In this document: one piece after another, positions 10,740 to 56,689 of the stretch | How the letters are laid out: the number at the start of each line of letters is the position of its first letter | Position numbering within the stretch: the stretch's first letter is position 1 | Assembly: GCA_019054805.1 (NCBI GenBank) | Contig: JAHQIY010000023.1 | Span: 372,001-436,000 of the forward strand | Length of the DNA: 64,000 bases | Direction: 5' to 3' | Source: Brachionus manjavacas | Taxonomy: Eukaryota > Rotifera > Eurotatoria > Ploima > Brachionidae | The notes under the pieces: model-generated | Database searches by the model: none | What the model saw: only the letters and a program-made list of their open reading frames with translations | Told to the model about the DNA's origin: nothing | Position numbers and translations under genes: made by a program

Positions 10740-11933
10740 TTACCATGGAAAATGATTGTTTTGATTATTTTGATTGTTGGAATTATTTATACTTTGGTTA
10801 TAAGTATTTGGAATATTTAATTTTGGCTGACTTGCTATTGAAGCCTGATTTGGGATTTCTGGCGGTGGCCTATTTATCATTTGAGTTTGATTAGAATACA
10901 TATTAAATGTTCCAAATGGATTTTGATATGGAGTTGAAAATTGAGGAGGTTGTTGATAAGGACTCAAATTTTGTGTACCATTATGACTTAGCGGCGAATT
11001 TAAAGGCTGCGTATAAGAAACTAAGGGATTTCTTTGCTCAGGACTTGTCGATAAATTAGACAATTCATTTAAAAGTGAATTGTATTTATCATTTTGGCTA
11101 TTTTCATTATTTTTTTTTGATGAAGCATCATCATTAGCCGATGTCTGATTTTGAAAAGAGTTATCAAAAACATCTAATAGTTCGTCTGAAGCTTGCTTTA
11201 AAGGTCCTGATTTTGAAGGATTTGGATCAGAATTTTCTTGCCAAGAATCATGAAAGTTATTAGAAGGAAAATCAAGAAGATTATTTGAAATTGGTGTTTT
11301 TGTCTCAGGCGCTGAATCACTCTGAGCTCTTAATTCATTTTGTGCCAAAGGCTCACTTTTTTTCTCTTCAAGGCTATTCTCTGCTTCTTTCAATTCAGTT
11401 GTTTTTTCCTCATTTTTTTTCTTTTCTGCCGTTCTCATCATGAGGACAACCTCGAATAAATCTTTCAGATTATTAAAAAATTCTTGAGCTTGTCTTTCTG
11501 TTTTGATTGCAAAATATTGAAAGTTGTTTTGTGAATTTTTGTATATGTACCCAATTGCTCTTGGATCAGTTGTGTCTCTTGCAATATATGAAATGCTTTT
11601 AACCGAATGTTTAAACATCAATTGATTAGTTTTCTCATCTAAAATTTCTATTCCTTCTAGATTTATTTTGATGCAAATGCGCTGCTTGTGTTCTTTCTTT
11701 GCAAGAACAACAGCTTTTAATTTTACCATTGCTGTCTGGCACACATCATCACCGTTCTCCTTTTTTACATCTTCGACGCCAATAAATTTACCACGAATTA
11801 AAACACCATGTTTAAATCTATCCGGATCGTTTGAGACTGATAATTTTTTTCCAGGTTTTGATTTTTTTGTTTCAGATTCATTCGCAGTGTCACTGGACAG
11901 AATTGGTGTTCCCATTTCGCCTGGCGTACTCAT
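10740..11933 (-). CDS. Dab: Disabled-like PTB-domain endocytic adaptor
   Basis: Single-exon frame of 397 residues starting MSTPGEMGTP. Residues ~38-168 form a phosphotyrosine-binding domain of the Disabled type: DPDRFKHGVLIRGKFIGVE, then the basic KKEHKQRICIKINLEGIEI block, ISYIARDTTDPRAIGYIY, and a C-terminal helix EFFNNLKDLFEVVL. In the family this domain binds NPxY tails of LDL-receptor-type receptors and PI(4,5)P2. The rest is low complexity, Ser/Asn/Gln/Pro rich, with an NPF tripeptide at residues 338-340 (EH-domain ligand) and acidic LLDF/LLDVF motifs that could contact clathrin or AP2. This fits a Dab1/Dab2 orthologue that sorts receptors at the plasma membrane. Lack of introns is notable. 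A TAG acceptor-like site lies 6 nt before the ATG. Confidence 0.88.
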   Translation of the reverse strand: MSTPGEMGTPILSSDTANESETKKSKPGKKLSVSNDPDRFKHGVLIRGKFIGVEDVKKENGDDVCQTAMVKLKAVVLAKKEHKQRICIKINLEGIEILDEKTNQLMFKHSVKSISYIARDTTDPRAIGYIYKNSQNNFQYFAIKTERQAQEFFNNLKDLFEVVLMMRTAEKKKNEEKTTELKEAENSLEEKKSEPLAQNELRAQSDSAPETKTPISNNLLDFPSNNFHDSWQENSDPNPSKSGPLKQASDELLDVFDNSFQNQTSANDDASSKKNNENSQNDKYNSLLNELSNLSTSPEQRNPLVSYTQPLNSPLSHNGTQNLSPYQQPPQFSTPYQNPFGTFNMYSNQTQMINRPPPEIPNQASIASQPKLNIPNTYNQSINNSNNQNNQNNHFPW

Positions 11934-12836
11934 TTTTCTCTATTATTTTTTACAAGATTGAATTTAAAAAAAAAATTTAAATCTTATTTAAGAACAATTT
12001 ATTTTAAAATGTTTAAAAGCAATTATTTAATCGCGTGAGTTTTATCTTTTTTTGTTTGTAAATTAAAAGAAAGAAATTATCATGAAAAAAACAATCAAAA
12101 TATTCAATTAATTATCTTTTCTTTTTTTCAAATTTTAGCTAGTCTTGATAGACTATATTAAAAAACTTTATCTTTTATATATATATATATATATTATCTA
12201 ATAGATACTAAAACTTTATGCGATAAGCATTAAATATTGTATTTTTAAGTCTTTTTGATTTGAAAATTTTCTATTAAAATCAAAACAGCATGAGAAATAA
12301 GAATTTAATACTCTAATACTAATTTTGAGAGCTAATTTTTTTTTTTTAAATTTGAAAATATCTTTTCAGCAAAAAAATAAAGATACAAAAAAACAAAATT
12401 TAATCTGCCCTAATTTTTTGTTTTAATTTAAAAACTTTCAGAACTTACTGGAAACAATTTCTCAAAAATTCAGTATAATTATCTGTTTAAATTTGATTCA
12501 AGCAATGTGAGCATTTTTTTTAAAATAATAATTGAATTGTCCAGCTTTTTTGAAAATTAATAAAATTTGCACTAAATTTTTTTCTGAAATTGTTCAATTC
12601 AACTTATGATCTACGAATGATAAAAGATTTGATTAATTTTTCTTATGATTTTAAAATTGCTTTGCCTAAAACGACGATTCATCTAGAGTGCAGCCTATCC
12701 CTATTATTATAATTAAAACATTCTTAAATTTCAACTCTAATGAAGTTAATTTTTTGATCAAAACAAACTTTGCGTTTTTTCAAAATTTTCATAATAATCT
12801 GATACTTTAATTTTAGTTAAAATTTTTAGATAAAAG
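11934..12836. other. Divergent intergenic spacer with an AT microsatellite
   Basis: This lies between the minus-strand Dab gene and the plus-strand WDFY gene, so both promoters are probably here. It holds a perfect (AT)n run at about 12177-12194. No other feature can be supported. Confidence 0.5.
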
Positions 12837-16396: not shown

Positions 16397-19214
16397 TCAA
16401 GTTTCAGGAAAAAAAGAAGAAATAGTGAGGTAGCAATTACACAATGGAGTTGGGTAGTCAATATATCTTGATTCGAAACCTTCTTTGTATTCCTTCACCA
16501 GCTTTACAACCAATGGAATAGAATGACTCAGTCCTGCCCCAACATATCTCTCACTCAATTCAAAAAGCCGATTCGAGACTGTTAGTAATTTTAGTTTATT
16601 AAAAGCTTCATGTTGCACAATGTTGGAGGGAGTATCATATTTTAACTTAAGGATAGATCTTACTGCTGTATTCTGAATTGCTTGTAGTTTTTTGATATTA
16701 TTTCCTGAAAATGAATTCAAGCAAGGAAAAGAATAGTCTAAAATTGATCCGACTAAAGATTTATATAGATTTCCTAGTGTGTTCTGATTAAGACCCCATT
16801 TTTTGTTTGACAATATCTTAATAATATTTAGCCTTTTATTGCAGCGCTCTTTAATTTCATCTACCAGTATATTAAAGTTTAATTTAGAATCAAATTTAAT
16901 ACCAAGAAACTTGATTTCTTTTCGTCTCTCTATTCTGTTTCCATAAATTTTTAAGTTAAGATTATCACTCTCTTTTTTGTACCTAGAAAAGACTAATGAA
17001 CACGACTTTTCAACCGATATCTTCATTTTCCACTTAATAAGCCATTGTTCTAATTCGTTGAGGTATTTATTGATCTTATTTTCTAGGTTCCCTTTTTTGT
17101 TATAAATGAAGAATGTAACTAGATCATCTGCAAAAAGCAGAGAGTATTCATTATTTGTTTTTTTTATTTTAGGGATGTCATTAATGTATATACTAAATAA
17201 AAGAGGACTAATTACTGAGCCTTGAGGAACACCTGCAGTTATTTGATATTCTTCGCTCAAATGGTCATTCACATTTACCTTAAATGTCCTAGAGTCTAAA
17301 AAGGATTTTATCCAGTTAGTCAAGTAATGAGGTGGATTTATTTTAATCAATTTAAAAAGTAAACCTTCATGCCAAACCCTATCAAAGGCTTTAGAAATAT
17401 CAAAAAAAAGGCCGCAAACCTTTTTTTTTTCTATTAAATGATTCCACAATTTTTTGAATTAAGAAGAAAAGATTATCTGCTGTTCGCCGGTGTTTCCTAA
17501 ATCCAGATTGCTCCTGGATAAGGAGTGAATTTTGCTCTAAAAAATTGTATAATCTTGAATATACTATGCGTTCCAGTAGCTTTCCTAAACAACTCGTTAT
17601 ACTAATTGGTCTATAATTTAAAGGATCGTGTAAACTAGAGGCCTTTTTTTGAATCATAGTAATGTAAGATGTTATCCACGCTTTCGGGACTCTACCTTCT
17701 CGAAGAGTTAAATTAAATAGTTCTATGATTTCTATTAATGAATTTCTAGGTAAGTTTTTTAACATTAAATTATGAATTTGGTCAGGTCCTGATGCCGCTT
17801 CATTTTTTAATCTCTTTAAAGCCATAATTAATTCATTTAAGCAAATTGGATCATTAAAATTAGACTGGTTATAATTCCTAAAGAAAACAGAGTTAGAATT
17901 TAGAATTTCGATATCTTTATCAGTATCAATTAAATCAGAATTAGAACTAAATATTGACGATAAGAGTTCTCCAAAGCATTTTCCCTTTTCTTCATTAGTT
18001 TTGAATTCCCTTTCATTTAAAATCAATTAAGGAATTAAATTTGATCCTTTTTTTGTTCTAAATTTATTTATTTTTTTCCAAAAAGGTCTACTTGTCAGTG
18101 GGTTTTTTCCCATCTTCTCAATAAAATCAAACCAATTTTGATTCCAGAATTTTTTTAAAGAGGCCTTTAACTCAGATGTAAGTTGATTAAATTTTTGCTT
18201 GAGCTTTTGACAGTGAGTTTTCTGGTAATTTCTTCTTACTTTCCTACGTTCTTTTATCAAATTAACAATGTTTGGCGGAAGACTCGTTTTGTAGATTTTC
18301 TGAGAAAGATATGGAATGCTTTTATGTGAAGCAGAAATAATTTTTTCTGTTATTTTATCATTTAGTTGATCTATTATGAGGGAACTTTCAGTGACATTCA
18401 CTATTTGAGAATTTAAAATCTCGCTGAGTAATTGCCAGTTTGCTTTCTTATAGTTAAGCCTTTTAGCTGCTGATTTATTTTCTAATTGATAGCCCATAGA
18501 AATCGATGCTTCGATTGGGAAATGGTCACTAGTCATGTCTTGACTATTTAAGACACTAAAGTCGGTAATTTTGTCAATCAATGAAGATGAAACTAAAAAA
18601 AGGTCAAGAATTTCAAAGTAATTCTTATTAAAAATATTGAAAGTAGGATGCTTATCATTGATTACTGAAAAGTCTAGCTCGTTGATTATTCTTTCTAATA
18701 TTATCCCGTTTTCATTTTCCCCTACGCAGCCTATTTGCTTTGTTCTAGCGTTTAGATCACCACCTAAAATGTAGTTTCTACATGTTTTAATTACTGTTTT
18801 AAAAAACTCAAACTTCAGAAGCACATTAGGTGGATTATAAAGACAAAATACAAACAGTTCATTTTTCTTTCCTAAGTTCATTTTTATACAAAGGAGTTCG
18901 GAATTGAATTCCTCGTAAGAAAAATCTTGTATAAATTCGATTCCTTCTTTATTTAAAATAGCTACTCCTCCTCCGTACTTGTTGCGTGGTTTTGTTAAGA
19001 ACTGATAATTTTGAAAATCAAGATAAATATTTGCCTCACTCAAATCTATCTTTAATTCATTGAGCAAAACAATGTCGGGACATTTTTGAGCTAAAAAATT
19101 GTCTAAGAGATGAACCCTACTAGGTAAATGAAGACAATTCCAGTGTGTAATTACTAACCTTGTTTTATTAAGAGGTTTTGTTCTTAAAGTTGATTTATTT
19201 AGCTTCTTGTTCAT
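16397..19214 (-). pseudogene. LINE copy A ORF2: APE endonuclease and reverse transcriptase
   Basis: The endonuclease (19214-18030) shows VITHWNCLHLPSR, VLLNELK, the GGDLNARTKQIG block and SDHFPIEASI, the expected AP-endonuclease-like motifs. The reverse transcriptase follows: FFDISKAFDRVWHEGL (first catalytic Asp), AGVPQGSVISPLLFS, and YSLLFADDLV (catalytic DD). A TAA at 18027-18029 interrupts the frame between the two domains. A +1 slip in a ten-base A/T run at 17421-17430 splits the RT; copy C has the uninterrupted reading there. Otherwise the frame is open, so only two mutations separate it from an intact ORF2. Confidence 0.88.
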
Positions 19215-19828
19215 TCTAAATTTTCTTGACTGGCAGTTTGCTGACCAATTTTGTTAGATGATTGATCTACTTGAATTGAACATTCAGTTGTTGAACTGTT
19301 TGATTCAGACTCGAAGGTACTGTCGTTTTGATTTTCTAATACAACTAATGGTTTCTTTGATTCATTTTCGGAAAGCTCTTTTTCATTTGGATCAGATTCG
19401 GGAAATCTCTTGATTTGATTTTTTGTTTGGAAAAAAGCTTCAGTCTCATTCTGATCATTTGAGAGGACATTGACAGGTCTCTGACTTATTGGTAGAAGAT
19501 CGTTTAAATGGCTTACCAAACTGTCTTCTAACACTGAAGTTTTGAGGTCTTGAGGACTAATTTCTGACATTACGTCATTGAGATTTGATGGCTGATATCC
19601 AGGCGTTTTTGGCATCAGATTTTCATCATTGTCTTTTAGGTCAGCTTCAATTATTGATTGGGTTTCTTCTTGGTCAATGTAAAGATCATTGTAGTCAATC
19701 TTTTTCCTCTCAAGCGACTTTAGCTTTTCAGCAATGGAGCATTTTTGTGTTAAGTGTCCTTTCTGATGACACTTTTCGCATAGTTTTTCTTTGACAGGGC
19801 ATTTCGCTATGTTGTGCCCTTCTATATC
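19211..19828 (-). pseudogene. LINE copy A ORF1, 5'-truncated, with CCHC zinc knuckle
   Basis: Reading from about 19828, the frame gives a GHNIAKC segment and a clean knuckle CEKCHQKGHLTQKC (C-x2-C-x4-H-x4-C). An acidic Ser/Asn/Glu-rich region follows, to a stop at 19211. In such elements ORF1 protein binds the RNA in the retrotransposition particle. The stop TGA overlaps the ORF2 start as ATGA, which argues for coupled translation. The N-terminal part is missing. Confidence 0.75.
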
Positions 19829-20004
19829 ATCGTTTATTTTTATATATTAAGGTTTAACAGGAAGTAATACGGAAGTAATGCTGTTCTAATTAGCTCAAAG
19901 CCTAAAAAGAAGGAAGCGAAAGGCTCAAAGTAAAAAATCAAAAAGTGCTGTTCCGAAAATTGATTCCGGATAATCGGGCATTCCGGATAACCGATTATTG
20001 ACTG

Positions 20005-22646: not shown

Positions 22647-25600
22647 TTACACGTTAAATAATTGGCCCATCTTATAATACGGCTCATGTCGACTTCCTTT
22701 ACTAAAACTTGGTCTTTTTTGAAATTTCATTGAGCTACTTGGTAAATGATTATTGTTAAGATCATTAGGTGTTTCTTCTTCATCACTAGATTTGTTAATC
22801 AAATTTGATATAGGCGTGCCCGAAGTTATACTTCCTCGTGATTGTTTGGCACAAGATTCCGACTCACTTTTCAGAAAATCGACATTTTCAATATTCAATG
22901 AATTTGAAGTGTCTCTATCGCTAGCTAGAGTGGTGTTGCTCGAAATGATTGCATTATAACAAAATTGATATTTTAAATTGTACAAGTGATTAAATAAACA
23001 AATGTTGGAGCCACCATCACTTGCACGCCGACCGCTGCTTAATATTGGTGGCGGGTTAAGAAAATTTTTTTGAAACTGAAAATCGTCATATTTATCGTTC
23101 TTGGCGTTTGAGTCATGTTTTGATTTTATGCATTTGTTTTGAAAAAAGTCATTGTGGTAAGAGTGCTTTCGAGGATTATGCTCCAGTTGAATTGTCTGAT
23201 AGTCCTGGTCAATGTTGAAATGTTCCGAGCTAATATTTGGCAAATTAAAATTTGAATTTAAGCTCTGACCGATTTCTGCTATCTGATGCAAATTTTGAGC
23301 GGAACTTTCTTCATTTATAGATTCGGAATTAGTAGCAATCGTATGTCTACGGATAGCACTATACCGAGCCAAATAATCACGGCCTAATTCTTCAATCGGC
23401 TTGATGTCTTCATCAATGCTAATCTTTTCACTTGAATCAACATTGTTTTCGTATTTGTGCAGACTGGTTTTAAATTTAGACTTTGCCATCGTGTATCCAT
23501 TTGTTCTGAATGCGTCTGGTCCCATATCAACACAATTTGGCTCCTGAATTCGGTATTTTTGTGTGTCAAACAAATGTTGACTTCTATTCTGAAATAAGTT
23601 GGCTTCAGTCAAATAATACAATCCAGATAAACTATCGAACTCATTATTTACCAAAGACTTGAAAACAGCAACTTAGATTTTAAGAAAACTAAAATTTGTT
23701 TAAAAAAAATACCTCAACCACTTTGGTTAAATCTAAGTCATATCTCTTTGAAAGCTCATTGAGAACTTCTTCGTTTGGAGTATTGTCTTCTATTGATCTT
23801 TTGGTAAATTTGTGTAATTTTATTTTTATAAAATAATTTAACAAAAAAATAGTAGAAAAAAGTGAAAATAATATTTCAATGATCATTGTTTAGAAATTTA
23901 TTCTTCTTACTATTAAATTAAGACACGCTTTTGAACCATGCACCAAATTAAATCTCGCCCATGCTAAGCAATTGTGAATTTTCATACAAAAATTTAATAA
24001 AAATATGGATTTTGTACCAGAGATTTTTGTGTAAGTTTTAAAATGTGAAAAATACAATGTTTCACTTTACAGTCCAGTTTTAAAAAAAAATTAAACAAGT
24101 GTTTGTCAAAAATTGATTATTCCTAATCAAATTGTAGGTTAATTTAGAATTGAAAATTAATTTTTTTCAATTATAACCACTTAATTCAAAATCATTTAAG
24201 CAACGATGACATGAATTTAGCATATAAATAAAATTAATTAATAAATTGCAAAAAAAATTCGAATTAGAATAGATCATAGAGACAAAAAATATCTAATTTT
24301 CAAAATATTGATATTTTTTATTTTATCATTAATATTTTCCTGTTAGTAGAAATTTATCTTTATTTTTGTTGAGTTTAGTGAAACATAATTTGTTTCATGG
24401 TGTTTCATCATCAAAGTCTAAAAAGCTCAATTTTGTCAATTTAAATTAATGAAAAATAATTTTATTTTGAAATTTTTGGAAAATTCCAATGTTAAAGAAA
24501 GAAAGAAAGAGAGCATTGCCTAATAGTATTATCACGGGTTTGTGGCCGCATCAAACTCTGAAATTCTTAATTTAATGCATCATCAAGACTTGAGTTTAAG
24601 ACAAAAAATAAAAAGAAATTTTTTTTTTTTACCATGCATTTGGTGCAGCACCAAGAATTAAGAAAACAAAATATTGGAAAAATTAATTTTCAAAAGCGTG
24701 TCTTAATTGAACGAAGGTTAGGGTGATTGTTTGGATAATCAATTAGCTTTGGAAAAAAAAAAAAAATTTTTTTTCATGTCTTAGATTTAATTTTCGAAAA
24801 AAAAAAGAAAAACAACTTACATGCTTTCTATTTGATTTATCAAATAAGTGAATTCTTTGTTGCTAGATGAAAACTCATTTGTGTCGCAATTTTTTTCCGA
24901 GTTAAGCCATCTACTGTTAATTATTTCATTCAGAGATATTCTTTTTTCAGGATTTACAGTCAACATTCCGTTAATCAAATTTTTACAATCTTTTTTGTTT
25001 CAAATTAGATTAAATTGAATTGAATTAGAATCAAAATTGAAGCTTGTCAAAATTACCTTCAGATAAAAAAAATGGCAGCTTATAATTTCCGCTTATAACT
25101 TGAGATCTCAATAAAGAAAATTGATTTGCTTCAAATGGCAAGTAACCACAAACAATAACATACAGAATAACACCTAAACTCCAAATGTCAACTTTTGAGC
25201 CGTCGTATTTTTTGGCCAAAAATAGTTCAGGTGCACAGTAAGGCGGACTGCCGCAATAAATGTCCAATAGTTCACCCAATTTAAAAGCACTTGAAAATCC
25301 AAAATCAGCTAGCTTTATACCCCAATTGGCATCTAGCAATAAATTTTCAACTTTTAAATCGCGATGCACAATCCTGTTCGAATGACAATAATAAACTGCT
25401 GAAATTATTTGTCCGAATACATTTTTCGCTTCTCGTTCACTCAGTCGCTTTTTGTGAACTATGAAGTCGTAGAGTTCTCCATTACAGGCATACTCAGTCA
25501 CTAAACAAATAAGCTTGTTTGTCTCCATTATTTCGTACAGCTTTATGATGTTGGGGTGTTTTTTAAGTTGTTTCATTGAGTCTATCTCGCGCTCGAGTCT

Positions 25601-25765
25601 TTGTTGCTTTTCGCTGTCAAGAACAGATTTGTCGAAGATTTTAATTGCCACTTTTTGTTTGGTCATCGAATGTGTTGCAATTTTTACCACAGCTGAGTTT
25701 CCTTTTCCGATCGTATTGCCAAGAATGTAGTTTCCAATCTTTATCTGCTTCGAATTTGATTCCAT
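22647..25765 (-). CDS. SIK: Salt-inducible kinase (SIK/QIK family)
   Basis: Four exons (25765-25057, 24989-24821, 23797-23713, 23657-22647) join in phase to 657 residues. The kinase domain opens IGNYILGNTIGKGNSAVVKI, with the catalytic Lys at ~42, HRDLKVENLLL (134-144) and DFG (154-156), and ends within exon 2 (NPEKRISLNEIINSRWL). Exons 3-4 encode a UBA-like segment (NEEVLNELSKRYDLDLTKVV, then ESLVNNEFDSLSGLYYLTEA) as in SIKs. The long tail carries RRASDGGSNI (Ser ~534), matching the PKA-phosphorylated 14-3-3 site of SIK1/2, plus RRHT (~427) and RKHS. The family phosphorylates CRTC and class IIa HDACs under cAMP control. The activation loop reads LLDIYCGSPPY; the LKB1-target Thr is Ile169 here. 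The start at 25765 is chosen because the kinase starts soon after; an upstream in-frame ATG at 25840 adds 25 residues rich in Ile and Phe and is less likely. Confidence 0.9.
23921..24706. repeat. TTAA-flanked foldback/MITE in a SIK intron
   Basis: Within the ~1-kb second intron of SIK, GACACGCTTTTGAA at the left and TTCAAAAGCGTGTC at the right are inverted repeats, each immediately flanked by TTAA. A second inner pair (GCACCAAAT/ATTTGGTGC) occurs. TTAA is the piggyBac target site, so a non-autonomous piggyBac-type element is possible, though the ends lack the usual CCC/GGG. Confidence 0.55.
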
Positions 25766-37765: not shown

Positions 37766-38229
37766 ATACCGTTTGCGAGAATATTTTTTAAAAAAATTAA
37801 AAAAAAAAATGCTAAATTTAAAAATATTTCAAAATTCTCGTATAACCGTCGAAAAGTTATAAATTAAATTGCGACAATAGTATAATAAAATTTGGTTTTA
37901 TTTCTGATTAATGATTTTAATCTTAATCAACCCAATTAATATTTTATTTTAAGTATGCAATAAAAATGAACTTATTTATGCAGTTTTAATAATTTTAACC
38001 TAGCTTATAGTTTTCAAAAAAAAAAAAAGAGAACACAAAGAGAGAAACATAATTTATTTTGCTACAACAAAAATACTTAAGAAAATTTATTTATTTTAAA
38101 AAAAAATTATGAAGCTATTTCGTGTTGTGTATTAGCTGGAAAATATTATTCTTATTCAAATTTTTTACATTTACTTAAATTAATGTGCATTTAGGATTTA
38201 AATAAAGAGATATTTATTAATTTACCAAA

Positions 38230-40206
38230 ATGGCAGCCAAAAATCAATCGGCTTCTCAGCAAAAAATTGACCCTGAGAAGAGATTTACAAAACAAGAAAA
38301 GATCGGTCGCGGGTCCTTTGGAGAGGTTTACAAGGGAATCGACAGACAAGACAACTCAGTTGTTGCTATCAAAATAATTGATCTTGAAGAAGCTGAAGAC
38401 GAGATTGAGGATATTCAACAAGAGATTCAAGTTTTGTCTCAGTGTGATTCGCCATTTGTGACAAAATATTATGGGTCGTTCTTAAAAGGAACTAAACTGT
38501 GGATAATAATGGAATATCTGGGAGGTGGCTCCGCTCTAGATTTAATGAAACCAGGCCCATTCGAAGAAAATTACATCGCAATTATTCTGCGAGAAGTCTT
38601 AAAAGGCTTAGAGTATTTGCATAACGAAAAAAAAATTCACCGAGATGTAAAGGCTGCTAATGTTCTTTTATCTGAGCAAGGTGATGTAAAACTTGCTGAT
38701 TTTGGAGTGGCTAAACAACTAACTCAATCGGTGTGCAAAGGAAACACATTTGTCGGAACTCCGTTTTGGATGGCACCTGAAGTAATTAAACAAGACGCGT
38801 ATGATTTCAAAGCAGATATTTGGTCTCTGGGAATAACAGCCTATGAATTGGCTAAAGGTGAGCCGCCATATTCAGATCTTCATCCAATGCGTGTACTCTT
38901 GCAAATTCCGAAAAATCCACCGCCTCAATTACAAGGCAACCAATTTAGCAGACCTTTTAAAGAATTTATAGAGATGTGCTTGCAGAAAGATCCTGCGAAT
39001 CGGCCATCAGCTAAAGAGCTGCTCAGACACGCGTTTATTAGAAAAGCTAAGAGAACTGGATATCTAACAGAACTGATCGAACGACACAAAGATTGGAAAC
39101 GGAATCGAGCGCTTAGAGGCGACCAAAGCTTGAACTCAAGTTCAGATCAATCAGATCAGAGTGAGAGTGATGAGGAAAACGAAGCAAATTCAGGCAGAAA
39201 TAACTATTTAGATGACGGCAATGGTTGGATTGAGACAATAAGAATGAGCAGTAAAAAGACGCAAATAATGAATAATTCGAATGAAATAGACAAGGATGAA
39301 TCAGAGCAGAATTCAAATATGCATTTTCAATCGAAATTTGTTCCTCAAAATTTTCACGACACAGATTCGAATAAACAGGTAGCTTTGCAGACAATTATGG
39401 CTAAAGTTTTTTAATTTTGATTTTTATTGTACTAAAATTTTTTCCTATACTTTAGTTTAAAATCTTTTAGCTGATCAATCAAATTGAATATTTACAATTT
39501 CAGATTGATTTTAATAATTATTTAAAGGGAGCACTGAACGGACTAAATCATTCGAAACTTGATGATTCATTGGGCGACTCTAATTTTTTCTTTGGAGATC
39601 CAAATGTAATTAAAATTTTGTTTACATTTTTTTTTTTAATTTTTTCTATATTAATAAATATTTAACAAACAGAAAAATCATCAATTATCAAATTTGTATT
39701 CGACAACCAATTCGCCAAATCAAACCAGCCAAAAAAGTCAAATAAGAACTCATTCGAGCTTTTATCACCCACAAGCTTTCAACCAAAACATTGTTTCAAA
39801 TAAAGAAAGTGCGGCCGCGGAAGTTCCAATAAACAAAGCTAATCTAGACGAAAATTTAAATGGGTCAAATCATTTGAGTTCAAGCTCATTTCATAAGATA
39901 ATTCCGCAAATGCCAAACCTTACTTCCATGAACGCCAAAACAACTAATATTCTACAACATGATCTAAGCAAGTCTTCTAAAATTGTCTTCCAAGCTTTAA
40001 GTAACATTACGAATAAATATAAGCAATCAGAAAACATAATTGATGAGCTAAAGACTTCTTTTATCTATTTGGAAAATAGCAATTCCAACTCACTTGATTT
40101 GTTTGTGAAAAATCTGTTCGAAATTTTACAATCAAAAGGCAGAAATCAATCGGCTCTATTATCACAATATGGTATAATAAATTATTCCGGATTATCGAAC
40201 AAATGA
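38230..40206 (+). CDS. Germinal-centre kinase III (STK24/25/26-like)
   Basis: Three exons (38230-39378, 39504-39605, 39673-40206) join in phase to 594 residues. The Ste20-type kinase domain has [11 protein letters not shown] (26-36), catalytic Lys48, [19 protein letters not shown] (157-164) and activation loop [15 protein letters not shown] with the phospho-threonine. The best family match is MST3/MST4/YSK1. A long Ser/Asn-rich linker follows. The C-terminal ~70 residues ([14 protein letters not shown] to the end) are predicted helical and sit where GCK-III kinases carry the CCM3/PDCD10-binding dimerisation domain. The family acts in STRIPAK, Golgi polarity and Hippo-linked signalling. The protein is longer than human STK25 (426 residues) because of the linker. 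Confidence 0.9.
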
Positions 40207-44254: not shown

Positions 44255-47200
44255 ATGCACAGTTTGTACAAAACAATTCATCCCCCCACCGGAGTCGATA
44301 ATTCTGTGTGTTGTAACTTCCGATCTTCAGTCGAAAATAATCTGATAACATCCTGTTCAAATCGCTTAAATGTATATAGATTTTATTCATGTCAAGTTGG
44401 GTCCGATTCAAATGATACAACATCCACGAAAAATAAGCTAGAGCTTGTCGAATCATTTTTTCTATATGGTACAATATCGAGCATTAAATCTTGTCGATAT
44501 GGAAACATGAACAAAGATTCGTTGATTATTGCTTTCAAAGACGCTAAGCTATCGATTGTTGAATATGACGAAAAATTGTGTGATTTGACCACACTGTCAA
44601 TTCATTTTTTCGAGGATGAAATTGATACAGAAGGAATTCACTATAACATCTATGACCCTATTTTGAAAGTTGATCCAAATATGAGATGCGCTTGCATGCT
44701 AATATATGGCTTTAAACTGGTGGTAATTCCATTTACTTCTAATCACGAAGCGACTGAAATTAATGATGAAAATTATGAGGAAAATTCCAAGAGCTTATCC
44801 AGCTACACAATCGACCTGAAAAAAGTCGACAACTGGCTCGAAATGCGAATCATCGATATTGAATTTTTACATGGATACTACGAGCCGACTTTGTTCATCT
44901 TGTGCGAATCGAACATGACTTGGGTTGGCAGATATGCCATCAAAAAGGATACTTGCAACAGTGTGGCCTTGTCGCTCAACTTAAATCAAAGAACTCATCC
45001 GATTATATGGCCGGTGGAAAAATTGCCGTCGGACTGCCTTAAAAGCTATGCGGTTCCGGATCCAATCGGAGGCGCTCTAATTTTCGCGGTCAACAGTCTA
45101 ATTTACATAAATCAAAGTGTGCCTTCATATGCAGTATCTTTAAATTCAATTGCTAGAAATACAAGTCACTATCCATTTAAAACTCATTTTGAATCCTTGA
45201 AAATAACCCTAGACTCTAGTCAAGCTTTATTTATTTCACATAACAAAATTTGTATTTCATTGAAAGGTAATTTTATTATCAAGATCTTTTGTTGATTCAT
45301 TAATTGGTAAATAGTCGATTGATCGTACTAAAAAAGTATAAGAAGTTTAGTTTGTTAAGACAAAACTTGTGCTGGGAAAAATGAAATTGATGATAAATGT
45401 CAAAAATTATTACTAAAATAGGATTCTAGTTAATTTTCTAATTTGAAAAATATTAACCACAGATTTATTTTTTTTTTCTTTAAAATATAATTTAGAAAGA
45501 ATAGTTCCTCGTGGCAGCCACAGATTTAAAAACAGAAGCAAAGCATTTCTTCTTTTTTTTAATTCTTTATTATTTATCCCGAAGGAGCATTAGCTCGATG
45601 CAGATTAACAAATAGAAAAATTTTTTTTAAAGTAAGTTTGTTTTTTTTTGTCTATTTGAAAAACAATGCAAAATATTTGTTTGAATTTGGTTTAATTATT
45701 TTATTTATTTGTAAATCTGTACCTAGCTAATGCTTCTTCAGAATAAAATAAATAAAATTTAGAATAAAGTTAAATCGGATAAAATAAAAAAAAAAGATTT
45801 AAATATTTGATAGTTCAGAAAAAAAAGAAGAAATTTTTAGGAAACAATTAAACAATGGAATTAGATATTCGATATATCTTGATTCGAAATCTTCTCTTTA
45901 TTCTTCTTCCAGTCTGACGACATAAGTAACTCAATAACTCAAACTTGCCCTGACATGTCTCTCAGTTAACTCAAAAAGTCGATTTGAGACTGCTAGTATT
46001 TTAAGTTTAATGAAATATATGGAAATAATGTTTAGTCATAAATTTAATTATTTTATTTATTAAGTAAAATTTTTGTCGAGCCAAGCTCCTTCAGATAAAA
46101 AAAAAAAAAAATTAATAAAAAGTTTCCGTTAGTTTTACATATTTTGAATACATGATCAGTTCATGTTTGTATTCTGAGTATTTAAACTAGACCAATTGAT
46201 TGTCAATCAATTAATCACCAATTTAACAACTCAATAAAACATTAAGAATTAAAAACAATTCATATCATTTTAAAAGGAGGCGAACTTTATGTCATAACTC
46301 TACTAACTGATTCCGAATCATTGAGAAGTATAAGAAGCTTTGATATTGAAAAATGTGTTAATTCTGTTATTTCAACGGGAATGACTAAGTGTTTTGATGA
46401 CTATTTGTTCGTTGGATCACGTTTGGGTAACTCGATTTTGTTGAAGTTTTCTAATTGTGAGCCAGAGATCGAACAAGACAAGCACAATTCAAATGAAACA
46501 TTAAGTGTGCCCAAAAAAGATAATGACAATAGCAAAAAGCAGTCGAACTATTTGTTTGAAATATGCGATGTACTTTTAAACATAGCGCCATGCGGCGATT
46601 CCATTATAGGCGAATCTGCAGGAGACTTAGGCGAATATTCAACTCAAGAAGATCCTTTAAATCCAATACACTTGAATCACATTGATATCGTTACCACAAG
46701 TGGTTTCACAAAAAACGGCTCTATATCTGTTTTGCAGAGGAGTATCAGGCCAGACATAATAGCCACCTTTCAAATTCCAGACATAATTGACATCTGGTCG
46801 GTGAATATCTTCGATTCAAGCTCAGAACTAAATGAATACGTTGTCAACTATCTTTTTCTTTCCAAAATAGATTCAACAGTAATTTTACAGATCGGCAACG
46901 AAATAACTGAATTAGACAAAGAAAGCTGCGATTTTGCGACCAAAGAGCCAACTTTATGTGTAGCTAACATGGAAATGAATAAATACATCATTCAGGTCAC
47001 TATAAACAATATTTATGTTTACAAAAAAGAAACCTCAATTGATATTGTTGATACTTTCAATTTGAAAAAATTAACTGACAGAGCAATAAAAAGTGTGTGC
47101 GTTTTGGACACGTTCGTTGGCATTCTAGATGAAAGCTACAAGTTGTACTTATTGAAATTTGATGCAATGATACAACAAATGGCTTTAAATATGAATGAAC

Positions 47201-50200
47201 CCATAAGTTGTTTTAGTTTTTATGATGACAAGACTGGAATTTTGACTAAAATAGAGTACCAAAGGGAAAGAACCGAAACAGAGGAAATGAAAGAAGAGGC
47301 GGCTGAAGCGAAAACATTTTATAATGAAACAAATGAAACAAATCATATAGATGATGAAGATGAAATTCTTTACGGTAGCTCATGTTCCGACTCCAAATTA
47401 GCTTCGCCCAACGACTACATAAACCGACTGCTAACTGAAAAAAATCCTGTAAATTCAAATTCAAGCAATTTATTTATTAGCAAGTGTCAAGTACAAAAAA
47501 ATTCCAACGATGTCAAGAAGCCAAGCTTTAAACTGTTTCTTGTTACTTTAGAAGGATCGTTACAAATTTATAATTTAAACAATTTAAAACTTGAATTTAA
47601 TATTCTAAATTTCAATCATGCTCTTAGAATTTTGAGTTTAAACAGCTCGTTGGAAAGTGGCAAAAATTTGAATGCTCAAGTTCACGAGATGTTGATAGTG
47701 CCTCATGGAGCTGATCTCTCGAGGCCACTTGTTGTAGCTCGAATGGAAGACGATTTGATCATTTATGAACTGGGTGAAAATTTGATGCTAAAAAAATTAA
47801 ATCACGAAATTTTGATTCGAGATAAAAAAATCAAGCGCCAAAAGCCACAAATTCAACAAAATCAGCGAACAACTGAAACACCTTTGGTGAGAAAATTTGA
47901 CAATTTGTGTTCGTGCAGCGGATTTGCAGTCATCGGTTCTTCGCTTTCTTCTTATCTTGTTTTTAACACCAGTCGAAATGGCTTGACAGCTCATCCCATT
48001 TGGAAAGATACCAGCTTTCCGATCATTAGTTTTACTCAATTTAAAAATAGCTCAATAACCATGTCCGGTTTTATTTACATAAATAAAAATTTCGACATTC
48101 GCATTTGCACACTGCCAAATGACGACTGCAAAGGGAAATTGCAAATTTATTACGATTTTCCGTGGATTTTGAAAAAAATTCAAATTCGACAAACAGTCAA
48201 TTTTATTTGCTATCATGAGGAGAGCAGAACTTATGCTGTTTCGTACAATCAAAACGAAACAACTAACAAATTAATGCAATTAGGTGAAGAAGATAAGGAA
48301 ATTGGCGAATTTCAGAAAGAAGACAATTTTATCTATCCAAACAAGAGTCAATTTTTTATTCAATTGTTTAACTCTATGGAATGGGAAGAGCTTCCTTATG
48401 GCAAATACCAACTAAACGAATGGGAGCATGTTAGCTGCTTGAAGATAGTTGATCTGCCATACGAAGGTCACACCTCAGGTCTTAGATCTTATCTTGTTGT
48501 TTCGACAATTTTTTGCTATTCAGAAGATGTTAATTCAAGAGGCAGAATTATTCTATTTGACATAATTGAGACAGTGCCTGAGCCAGACAAGCCTCTTACA
48601 AACACCAAATTGAAATTAATCTACGAAAAAGAACAAAAAGGCCCGGTCACTTGTGTAGACTCGGTCAATGCACATTTGATTGGATGCGTTGGTCAAAAAA
48701 TATTCATTTGGGAATTTAAAAATAACGAACTCATTGGCAAAGCTTTCATCGATTGTAGCTTCTATATTCATAGAATGATCACATTGAAAGATTTCGTTTT
48801 AATAGCAGACTTACACAAGAGCATTTCATTAATACGATTTCAAAGTGAATATACCAAATTGTCATTTGTAGCAAAAGTTAGTTTTCAAAGTCCAATTTCA
48901 AATCATGTCAAATTTTAATTTTTCTTTTTTTTAATTCAAAGGATAAGCATTTGATTGATATTTTTGCTTGTGAATACTTTGTAGACAATTCCAATCTTGG
49001 TTTTATTGGTAACTTTACAATTCATATGTTTCTAGAGTATTTTCTAACTTAAAGTATCAAGCATCAGACTCGGAAAGTAACATTAGTATTTTTGCATATC
49101 AAAACGAATGTGAGTAGTGTTTGATTGTTTAATTGTATTATTAAACCATCGTTTTGAATTTTTGAAGCGCATGACAGTCAAGGAGGAGCATGGCTAATAA
49201 AGAAAGCAGAGTTCAACATTGGTTCTAAGATCAATTCGATGTTTCGATTAAAATGCCGAGTTAATGATTCTGGTACAGACAGAAGAGCAATTATGGCTGA
49301 AAAAAGACAAGTTACTTATTGTAGTAAGTTATTTAATAACAATAATAATAATAATGATATTTATTCAGTAAATACCGCGAAGGTGATGTAAAGAAAAAAA
49401 AAATAAAATAAAAAAAAAAGATAGTTTTGTCTTTCTAACTAAATTAAAAAAGTAAATTAGAGTGCTTTCATAACTGTGTTAGTCACATTATTCAATTGAA
49501 TCAAAATAACTAATATAAATAATTTTTCAAATTCGATTGTTAAAAACAAGTTAAATGGAAATTTCGTAGATAAACATATTTTTTTTCTTGCGTTTTTGCT
49601 TAGAAAGCTTTAGTTAAAAGTTGTAGGATTTTTTCTTGTTTTTCTTTGGTCATTGATCCAGAAATACAAAACTTTATTCACTCAGTTATTCCATCTTTCT
49701 TACATTCTCGATTGTTTAAGGAGATTTTTCTTTGATCTCGTTTTTTCCTCGAGATCGTCTAAGTTTTCTATGCTTTCATTTTCACTTTCTAAAAGTTCGT
49801 TTGAGTCGTTGAGGACCAATTTCTTACTGGTATTTTTTCGGTTTTGTATTAATTCTTTTAATAGTCAATCGACAAATTATTTTGTAAATTTATTATTTGC
49901 TGCTGTTTTAATCTATTGACCGTCAGGCAAATTGAAGTTCATGATCAAATGTTAAGTTTAAATCAAAATTTTTAAGTTTTTGATTTAAATAAAAAGATTT
50001 TGATTTAAATAATTTTTTATCAGTTTTTTTAATAATAAATTACTAAACTTTATTAAACATTATTTGTTTAATCAGTAATTAGATAGAAAACTTTATGAAT
50101 TTTTTTTAGAAGTTAATTGAATACTTAATCAATATTTGAAATTTTACATTACAAAATTTAACTTTGTTTCGGCTTAATATAATTTAAGTGTTTATTTGAG

Positions 50201-55313: not shown

Positions 55314-55319
55314 CACAGC

Positions 55320-56674
55320 CTGGATTTCGGCTCATTCTCAGCTCCATCCAGTGGCCACAATGGCAAAAACGAGTCCAAAATCGGCTTGTCCACTTCCCTT
55401 GGCCTGTCTTTCTTTGACCAAAATGGCGACGAAGTAATCATCACCAATTCAAAGAAACCAATTGACATTTGGATACTAAGAGATTTGCCCGACTTTCCAT
55501 TCCAGCATGTGAACACATCCAACTTGACAATATCATCAGGAGGCCAAATACTTCCAAATAGCTTTGTAATCCACTCGGACAATTCTTCCATTCATTTGGA
55601 GATAAGACCTGACATTGACTTGACTCATGTTTTGAACTCAAGCTACAAAATTTATGACCACTTGTTCATTGTGTGTCCACACACAGCCATTAAATCTTCT
55701 TTCCAAAACCAAACTCAGCATGTCCAGTTCACATTTTTCATGAACATCAGCCAAGTCAAATGCTTCACTGGCTACGGAATCAGACAATTAACTCAAACTG
55801 AATCAAACTTTAAATGTCCCAACAGTTCTCTCACCCAGCCACCATCGATCAGCAATGATTCCCAATTGTTCACTAGTGACTTTTCTGTCCGAGTGTACTG
55901 TTACTATTTGGACAAATATTCAGGCAAGTGGAAGTCAGAAGGAATGAAAATTTTTCCTGATAGCACACTAGAAATGGCCCATTGTCAATCGAGCCACTTG
56001 ACACAGTTTGCCGGCGGCCTGGTCGTCCTTCCGTCCAAAATCAACTTTGAGCATGTGTTTGCCAATGTCAGTTTTCTGAAAAATCCGGTCATTTACTCAA
56101 CTGTGATTGCCATTTTGGCTTTCTATGTGATGAGTGTTGTGTGGGCTTATGTGAATGACAGACTGGACAAAAAAAGAGCTGGTCTGAGTATCTTGCAGGA
56201 CAAGTATTCGATAAATAGTTATTTTTATGAGGTAATTGTGTTCACTAGGAGCAGAAAGAAAGCGGCAACTGATTCCAAGGTGAGCATGATTTTGAGTGGA
56301 GATGTGGGCGAAACAGAGCCAAGGCACTTGTTGGAAAAAAAGAGAAAAGTGTTGAGACGTGGCGGAATCGACTCGTTTCTAATGGGAGTCGATGGACCTT
56401 TGGGAAATTTGAATTATGTGAGGAAATTGCATGATAATGGCGGCAAGGGAAACATGGCTTCGTGGTACCTCAAATTTGTGATTGTCCACGATGTGCAGAC
56501 TAGAGAAAAGCACTATTTTTTGTGCGAAAAGTGGCTCGGAGTGGAAAAAGGAGATGGTCTAATTGACCGGATATTGCCGATAGCTGGCGACATGCAAAAA
56601 ACCGAAATAAAGTTTTTGGTCAAAAAACAGACCAAAAAAAACATGAGAGATGGTCACTTGTGGTTTTTTAGGTA
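55320..56674 (+). CDS. Polycystin-1-like GPS-TM-PLAT segment (partial)
   Basis: One long exon, open from ~55314, with no clear start codon, encodes ~450 residues. The first ~150 resemble the extracellular stalk. A GPS/GAIN motif follows (YCYYLDKYSGKW, then AHCQSSHLTQF with the HLT cleavage site), then one membrane helix (NPVIYSTVIAILAFYVMSVV), then a PLAT/LH2 domain (YFYEVIVFTRSRKK; NMASWYLKFVIVHDV; EKWLGVEKGDGLIDR; GHLWFF). This order is specific to PKD1/PKD1L/PKDREJ proteins. The exon ends TTTTTAG followed by GTAAAAAT, a plausible donor, but no downstream exon with the remaining ten membrane helices is in the window, and transposase-like sequence starts 15 bp later. So it is either truncated or a fragment. 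GC content is clearly higher than the surroundings. Confidence 0.8.
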
Positions 56675-56689
56675 AAAATAAGCGATAAG

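Follow-up and report, generated by a model that had tools for sequence, protein, structure and literature searches.

Isoleucine at the LKB1-target position of a SIK3-type kinase gene in the rotifer Brachionus manjavacas

Can a SIK-type kinase remain in use after losing the threonine through which LKB1 switches it on? The question is raised by a gene within a 64-kb stretch of Brachionus manjavacas DNA (contig C23:372001-436000, here called the window), which comes from a 114 Mb assembly of 61 contigs with GC content of 26-28%. Phosphorylation of the activation-loop threonine by LKB1 is taken as needed for the activity of all AMPK-related kinases (PMC6890249, PMC8057676).

The gene occupies positions 25765-22647 on the minus strand and is predicted to encode 657 amino acids in four exons:

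25057..25765, minus strand: exon 1, 709 bases; N-terminus and the larger part of the kinase domain (residues 1-236), with Pkinase match
24821..24989, minus strand: exon 2, 169 bases; last part of the kinase domain, and linker
23713..23797, minus strand: exon 3, 85 bases; first half of a UBA-like segment
22647..23657, minus strand: exon 4, 1011 bases; remainder of the UBA-like segment and tail, through the stop codon

The Pfam Pkinase match spans residues 15-265 of the spliced protein. Since all junctions of the splice model are GT-AG, exons (28-36% GC) stand apart from introns (20-23%), and the 657-codon coding sequence is open although its 1000 mononucleotide shuffles yield at most 143 open codons in a run, this frame represents a gene and not a chance ORF. 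The splicing pattern and the stop codon at 22647 are both predicted from the genomic DNA, and additional 3' exons are possible. A structure model of exon 1 was set aside as evidence, also for any contact made by Asp168 (mean pLDDT 67.3, below 50 over residues 167-236). Rfam search of the 64-kb window gave zero matches. The spliced leader of bdelloids was absent at up to 1 mismatch, which is compatible with a monogonont, since Brachionus plicatilis also showed none (PMC1925144).

Two residues of the activation loop are central to the question:

25259..25261, minus strand: Ile169 (ATT) at the LKB1-target threonine position (splice model, alignment, codon reading)
25262..25264, minus strand: Asp168, the MARK-like residue preceding that position (splice model, alignment)

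Minus-strand codon 25261-25259 reads ATT, which places Ile169 within the sequence LLDIYCGSPPY. In an alignment of 12 rows including the window gene, this column holds threonine in all seven SIK/MARK references (one of them the MARK of the same genome) and in 4/4 other paralogues of the genome; isoleucine occurs solely in the window gene. The alignment has no gap nearby and offers no alternative threonine for the LKB1 position. Remaining serines, threonines and tyrosines of the activation segment are S158, S159, Y170, S173 and Y176. Among them, S173 is the conserved +4 serine, which reportedly autophosphorylates in SIK1 and SIK2, not in SIK3 (PMC8057676). Among the genome-search matches listed, none is a second kinase exon with threonine near 397 kb on C23, the other matches on this contig lying at 410 kb (28%), 1.00 Mb (41%) and 76 kb (33%). 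The sequence-only reading, which had reported replacement of threonine by isoleucine and Asp at the preceding residue, is thus confirmed on both counts, and the activation-loop threonine of LKB1-activated AMPK-related kinases is indeed lost in this gene. Search of the open-access literature, covering titles and abstract openings, found no paper on a natural SIK without this threonine.

To what family does the gene belong? Among solved chains, SIK3 comes first (303.8 bits, 59.9% identity), ahead of MARK2 (285.6 bits, 58.0%). A tree of 10 rows places the gene with the SIK clade at support 81/86 (not starred). In topology tests, a tree that pairs it with SIK3 carries no penalty (p-AU 0.499), and one that holds it with the MARKs is not rejected either (p-AU 0.21). 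An earlier 12-row tree that included long-branched paralogues, and in which the human SIK1, SIK2 and Drosophila Sik2 sequences were entered without a database record, put it beside NIM1 at support 46/35. On PF23312 UBA_SIK3 the UBA-like segment (residues 303-337) reaches 14.6 bits (E 0.035), short of the cut-off of 27; with 16.5 bits, the genome's own MARK scores higher on the same model. Six-frame search of the genome with this model lists MARK alone, because an intron divides the segment of the window gene. Kinase-domain data alone do not prove SIK against MARK.

The tail carries three candidate regulatory sites:

23340..23342, minus strand: Thr427 in RRHT (424-427), putative PKA-type site (motif scan)
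23160..23162, minus strand: Ser487 in RKHS (484-487), putative PKA-type site (motif scan)
23011..23033, minus strand: Ser534 in GRRASDGG (RRAS 531-534), PKA/14-3-3 site (motif scan, genome pattern search)

All three correspond in sequence to the tail PKA/14-3-3 sites of SIKs, and the window gene is the single match of the GRRASDGG pattern in the whole genome. The motif scan thus bears out the earlier claim that a cAMP/14-3-3 site, RRASDGG, is kept, and adds RRHT and RKHS to it. Since these sites and the GRRASDGG pattern favour SIK, we call the gene SIK3-type. It resembles human SIK3 (8r4o, 8oku) in layout, with the UBA-like segment between the kinase and the PKA-site tail, and UBA_SIK3 is its best-matching UBA model, if sub-threshold; it differs in having isoleucine where SIK3 has T221 and in its far longer branch. 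With MARK/PAR-1 it shares Asp before the threonine position (LDxxCGSPPY), besides the identity to MARK2 and the tolerated MARK grouping given above. MARKs, however, retain the threonine, and the window gene scores best to SIK3 and carries GRRASDGG together with the other PKA-type sites. Pfam reported no KA1 domain in the window protein. Taken together, splice model, alignment and PKA-type tail sites support a SIK-type kinase without the LKB1-target threonine. Kinase-domain scans for orthologues in viral and prokaryotic contig collections gave 0 pattern matches in the viral set and 18 in the other, with no relative among them; they are uninformative on animals.

Further, we examined the catalytic core, whose main elements are:

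25640..25642, minus strand: catalytic Lys42 (alignment)
25358..25366, minus strand: HRD catalytic motif, residues 134-136 (alignment)
25298..25306, minus strand: DFG motif, residues 154-156 (alignment)

All 22 catalytic landmarks are kept, including the catalytic Lys, alphaC Glu, HRD, DFG and APE. Together with the CGSPPY of the activation loop, this agrees with the sequence-only reading, which had described DFG, HRD, catalytic Lys and CGSPPY as intact. Elsewhere the kinase has changed considerably. It departs at 21 of the 109 columns invariant in the seven SIK/MARK references, for example by F24S in the glycine loop and by two changes around the activation segment, N159S and A177C. None of the changed columns is among the 22 landmarks, as compared with 21/87 of the others (Fisher p 0.006, an optimistic value, as the landmarks were picked from textbook motifs and the main ones were already known to be intact). 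The end branch of the window gene in the tree is 1.07 long, against 0.078 for both human SIK3 and the genome's own MARK. The gene is thus accelerated with its catalytic core spared, the threonine loss being one among many changes. Because the gene evolves fast, this loss may belong to a general loosening. Four paralogues, namely a SIK/MARK-like gene on contig C7 (19 departures), AMPK-alpha (27), NIM1 (33) and SNRK (35), all retain the threonine, with changes counted at the same 109 columns.

Is the threonine missing from related kinases of the same genome as well? Among the matches listed, it is present in 10/10 other AMPK-related kinases examined; they form a part of the listed kinases, and further AMPK-related genes are possible. 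MARK (L040) was identified by about 90% identity to MARK2/3, SNRK (L042) and MELK (L045) by their best solved matches, and the C7 gene (L039) has the loop LNTFCGSPPY. From sequence features we take the remaining ones to be NIM1-like (L043), NUAK-like (L044), BRSK-like (L047), HUNK-like (L041) and AMPK-alpha (L046, L064). The NUAK-like gene is a fragment with MARK2 as best solved match. Both AMPK-alpha genes lie on contig C5 about 25 kb apart and are closely similar, with identical activation loops. Two kinases outside the ten, one CHK1-like (L018) with Pro and one PASK-like (L017) with Thr at the position, were left uncounted, since PMC6890249 does not list them as LKB1 clients.

The sequence-only reading had proposed a search for a second SIK with threonine. 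A Thr-bearing paralogue does exist in the C7 gene, which may be a SIK or a MARK by scores and tree. Among solved chains it matches MARK2 best (348.8 bits, against 340.4 for SIK3). Of the rows compared, human SIK2 (again entered without a database record) gives the highest aligned score, 828, and in the tree the gene falls with the SIKs at 71/92, MARK grouping not being rejected (p-AU 0.39). Its 514-aa ORF contains neither a UBA match in Pfam nor the GRRASDGG pattern. The kinase of the C7 gene evolves about as fast as that of the window gene (end branches 0.86 and 1.07).

As for the upstream kinase, LKB1 is encoded on contig C28, with STK11 as best solved match (7e-70; next other kinase 5.5e-28). 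MO25 is represented by a PF08569 match (7.3e-102) that crosses in-frame stops, as read-through introns would lead one to expect, STRAD by a partial candidate on C12 (44% across query residues 99-221 of 226), and the CRTC N-terminus by TORC_N (5.2e-13, 31/63 positions). Since LKB1 is present and ten other AMPK-related kinases keep their threonine, the loss is specific to the window gene among the AMPK-related kinases examined. The LKB1 gene (L063, minus strand) has CDFS at the position of the human LKB1 motif SDLG, and its C-terminus, CLLM, resembles a CAAX box.

Loss of the threonine would imply either weak constitutive activity, made possible by compensating changes, or inactivity. We prefer the former because the catalytic core is spared, and give a probability of roughly 0.5 to a functioning SIK3-type kinase without its LKB1 switch, with low constitutive activity and under restraint by PKA and 14-3-3. 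LKB1 cannot phosphorylate the usual site, since the residue there is Ile169. As the catalytic machinery is kept, the kinase most likely runs at a low constitutive level, which would depend on how strongly the gene is expressed and on PKA/14-3-3 restraint via the tail sites. LKB1 signalling itself probably goes on via the AMPK-related kinases in which the site is retained. We thus infer, as the sequence-only reading did, that activation is uncoupled from LKB1 with activity persisting. A bolder version, in which a natural, constitutively competent SIK3-type kinase is freed from LKB1 for good, PKA is its sole switch and LKB1-dependent SIK-like duties rest on the Thr-bearing C7 paralogue, is put forward tentatively. 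Against a living kinase with low activity stand the inactivation of mammalian SIKs by a Thr-to-Ala change (PMC8057676), the acceleration of the gene and the reported lack of +4 serine autophosphorylation in SIK3; tolerance of Ile169 is conjectural. In mammalian SIK3, T221A is without kinase activity and T221E retains 40-50% (PMC11807893). LKB1 phosphorylation at the residue is impossible in these engineered alleles as in the window gene, whose isoleucine is, however, natural and neither acidic nor alanine.

The behaviour of T221A is also what a catalytically weak or dead SIK would lead us to expect, either under relaxed selection or kept as a scaffold or dominant-negative that works by way of the UBA-like segment and the 14-3-3-binding tail. 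The long branch and the 21 changed invariant columns (F24S, N159S, A177C and others) agree with this, and species-specific decay is possible because the gene is accelerated (1.07 against 0.078). Yet the landmark columns are unchanged, the frame is open across four exons and the C7 paralogue keeps its threonine at a similar count of changes (19/109), so we regard this explanation as rather unlikely. It is quite improbable that Asp168 replaces the phosphate and builds an active loop, as the sequence-only reading had suggested with a fixed negative charge. Precedents for such a role do exist: in Ire1, loop phosphorylation is partly replaced by Asp836, and in phosphorylase kinase a Glu of the loop is used (PMC5533888), and the partial activity of T221E points the same way, though there the charge sits at the threonine position itself. 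Asp, however, is the ordinary residue of MARKs (KLDT), including that of the same genome; MARK2 with this Asp still requires its threonine, and the SIK2 double change L172K A174D had no detectable effect in vitro (both PMC6890249), which leaves the charge proposal weak. Finally, a single C-to-T difference separates ATT from the threonine codon ACT, the base rests on one assembly and threonine occurs in every other AMPK-related kinase examined. A sequence error or rare allele is nevertheless very improbable, as the segment holds further changes of invariant columns (N159S, A177C) and the loop is not otherwise typical.

If the kinase is active without its threonine, a natural SIK would reveal residues able to replace the switch, and LKB1 input would be separable from cAMP input, which laboratory alleles of the T221E type achieve only partly. 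If it is inactive, the gene documents one SIK lost in an animal that keeps the remaining pathway.

Several other coding regions were observed in the window. Downstream of the SIK-type gene, a LINE-type retroelement with ORFs for endonuclease and reverse transcriptase lies on the minus strand (16397-19846), and an ORF with PTB/PID domain is found on the same strand at 10740-11939. The plus strand contains a complete kinase ORF with the loop GTPFWMAPE (38221-39414), which we take to resemble GCKIII/STK24-25 kinases, a region with RSE1/DDB1/CPSF1-type beta-propeller and CPSF_A domains (44255-48918) and an ORF with PLAT domain (55314-56675).
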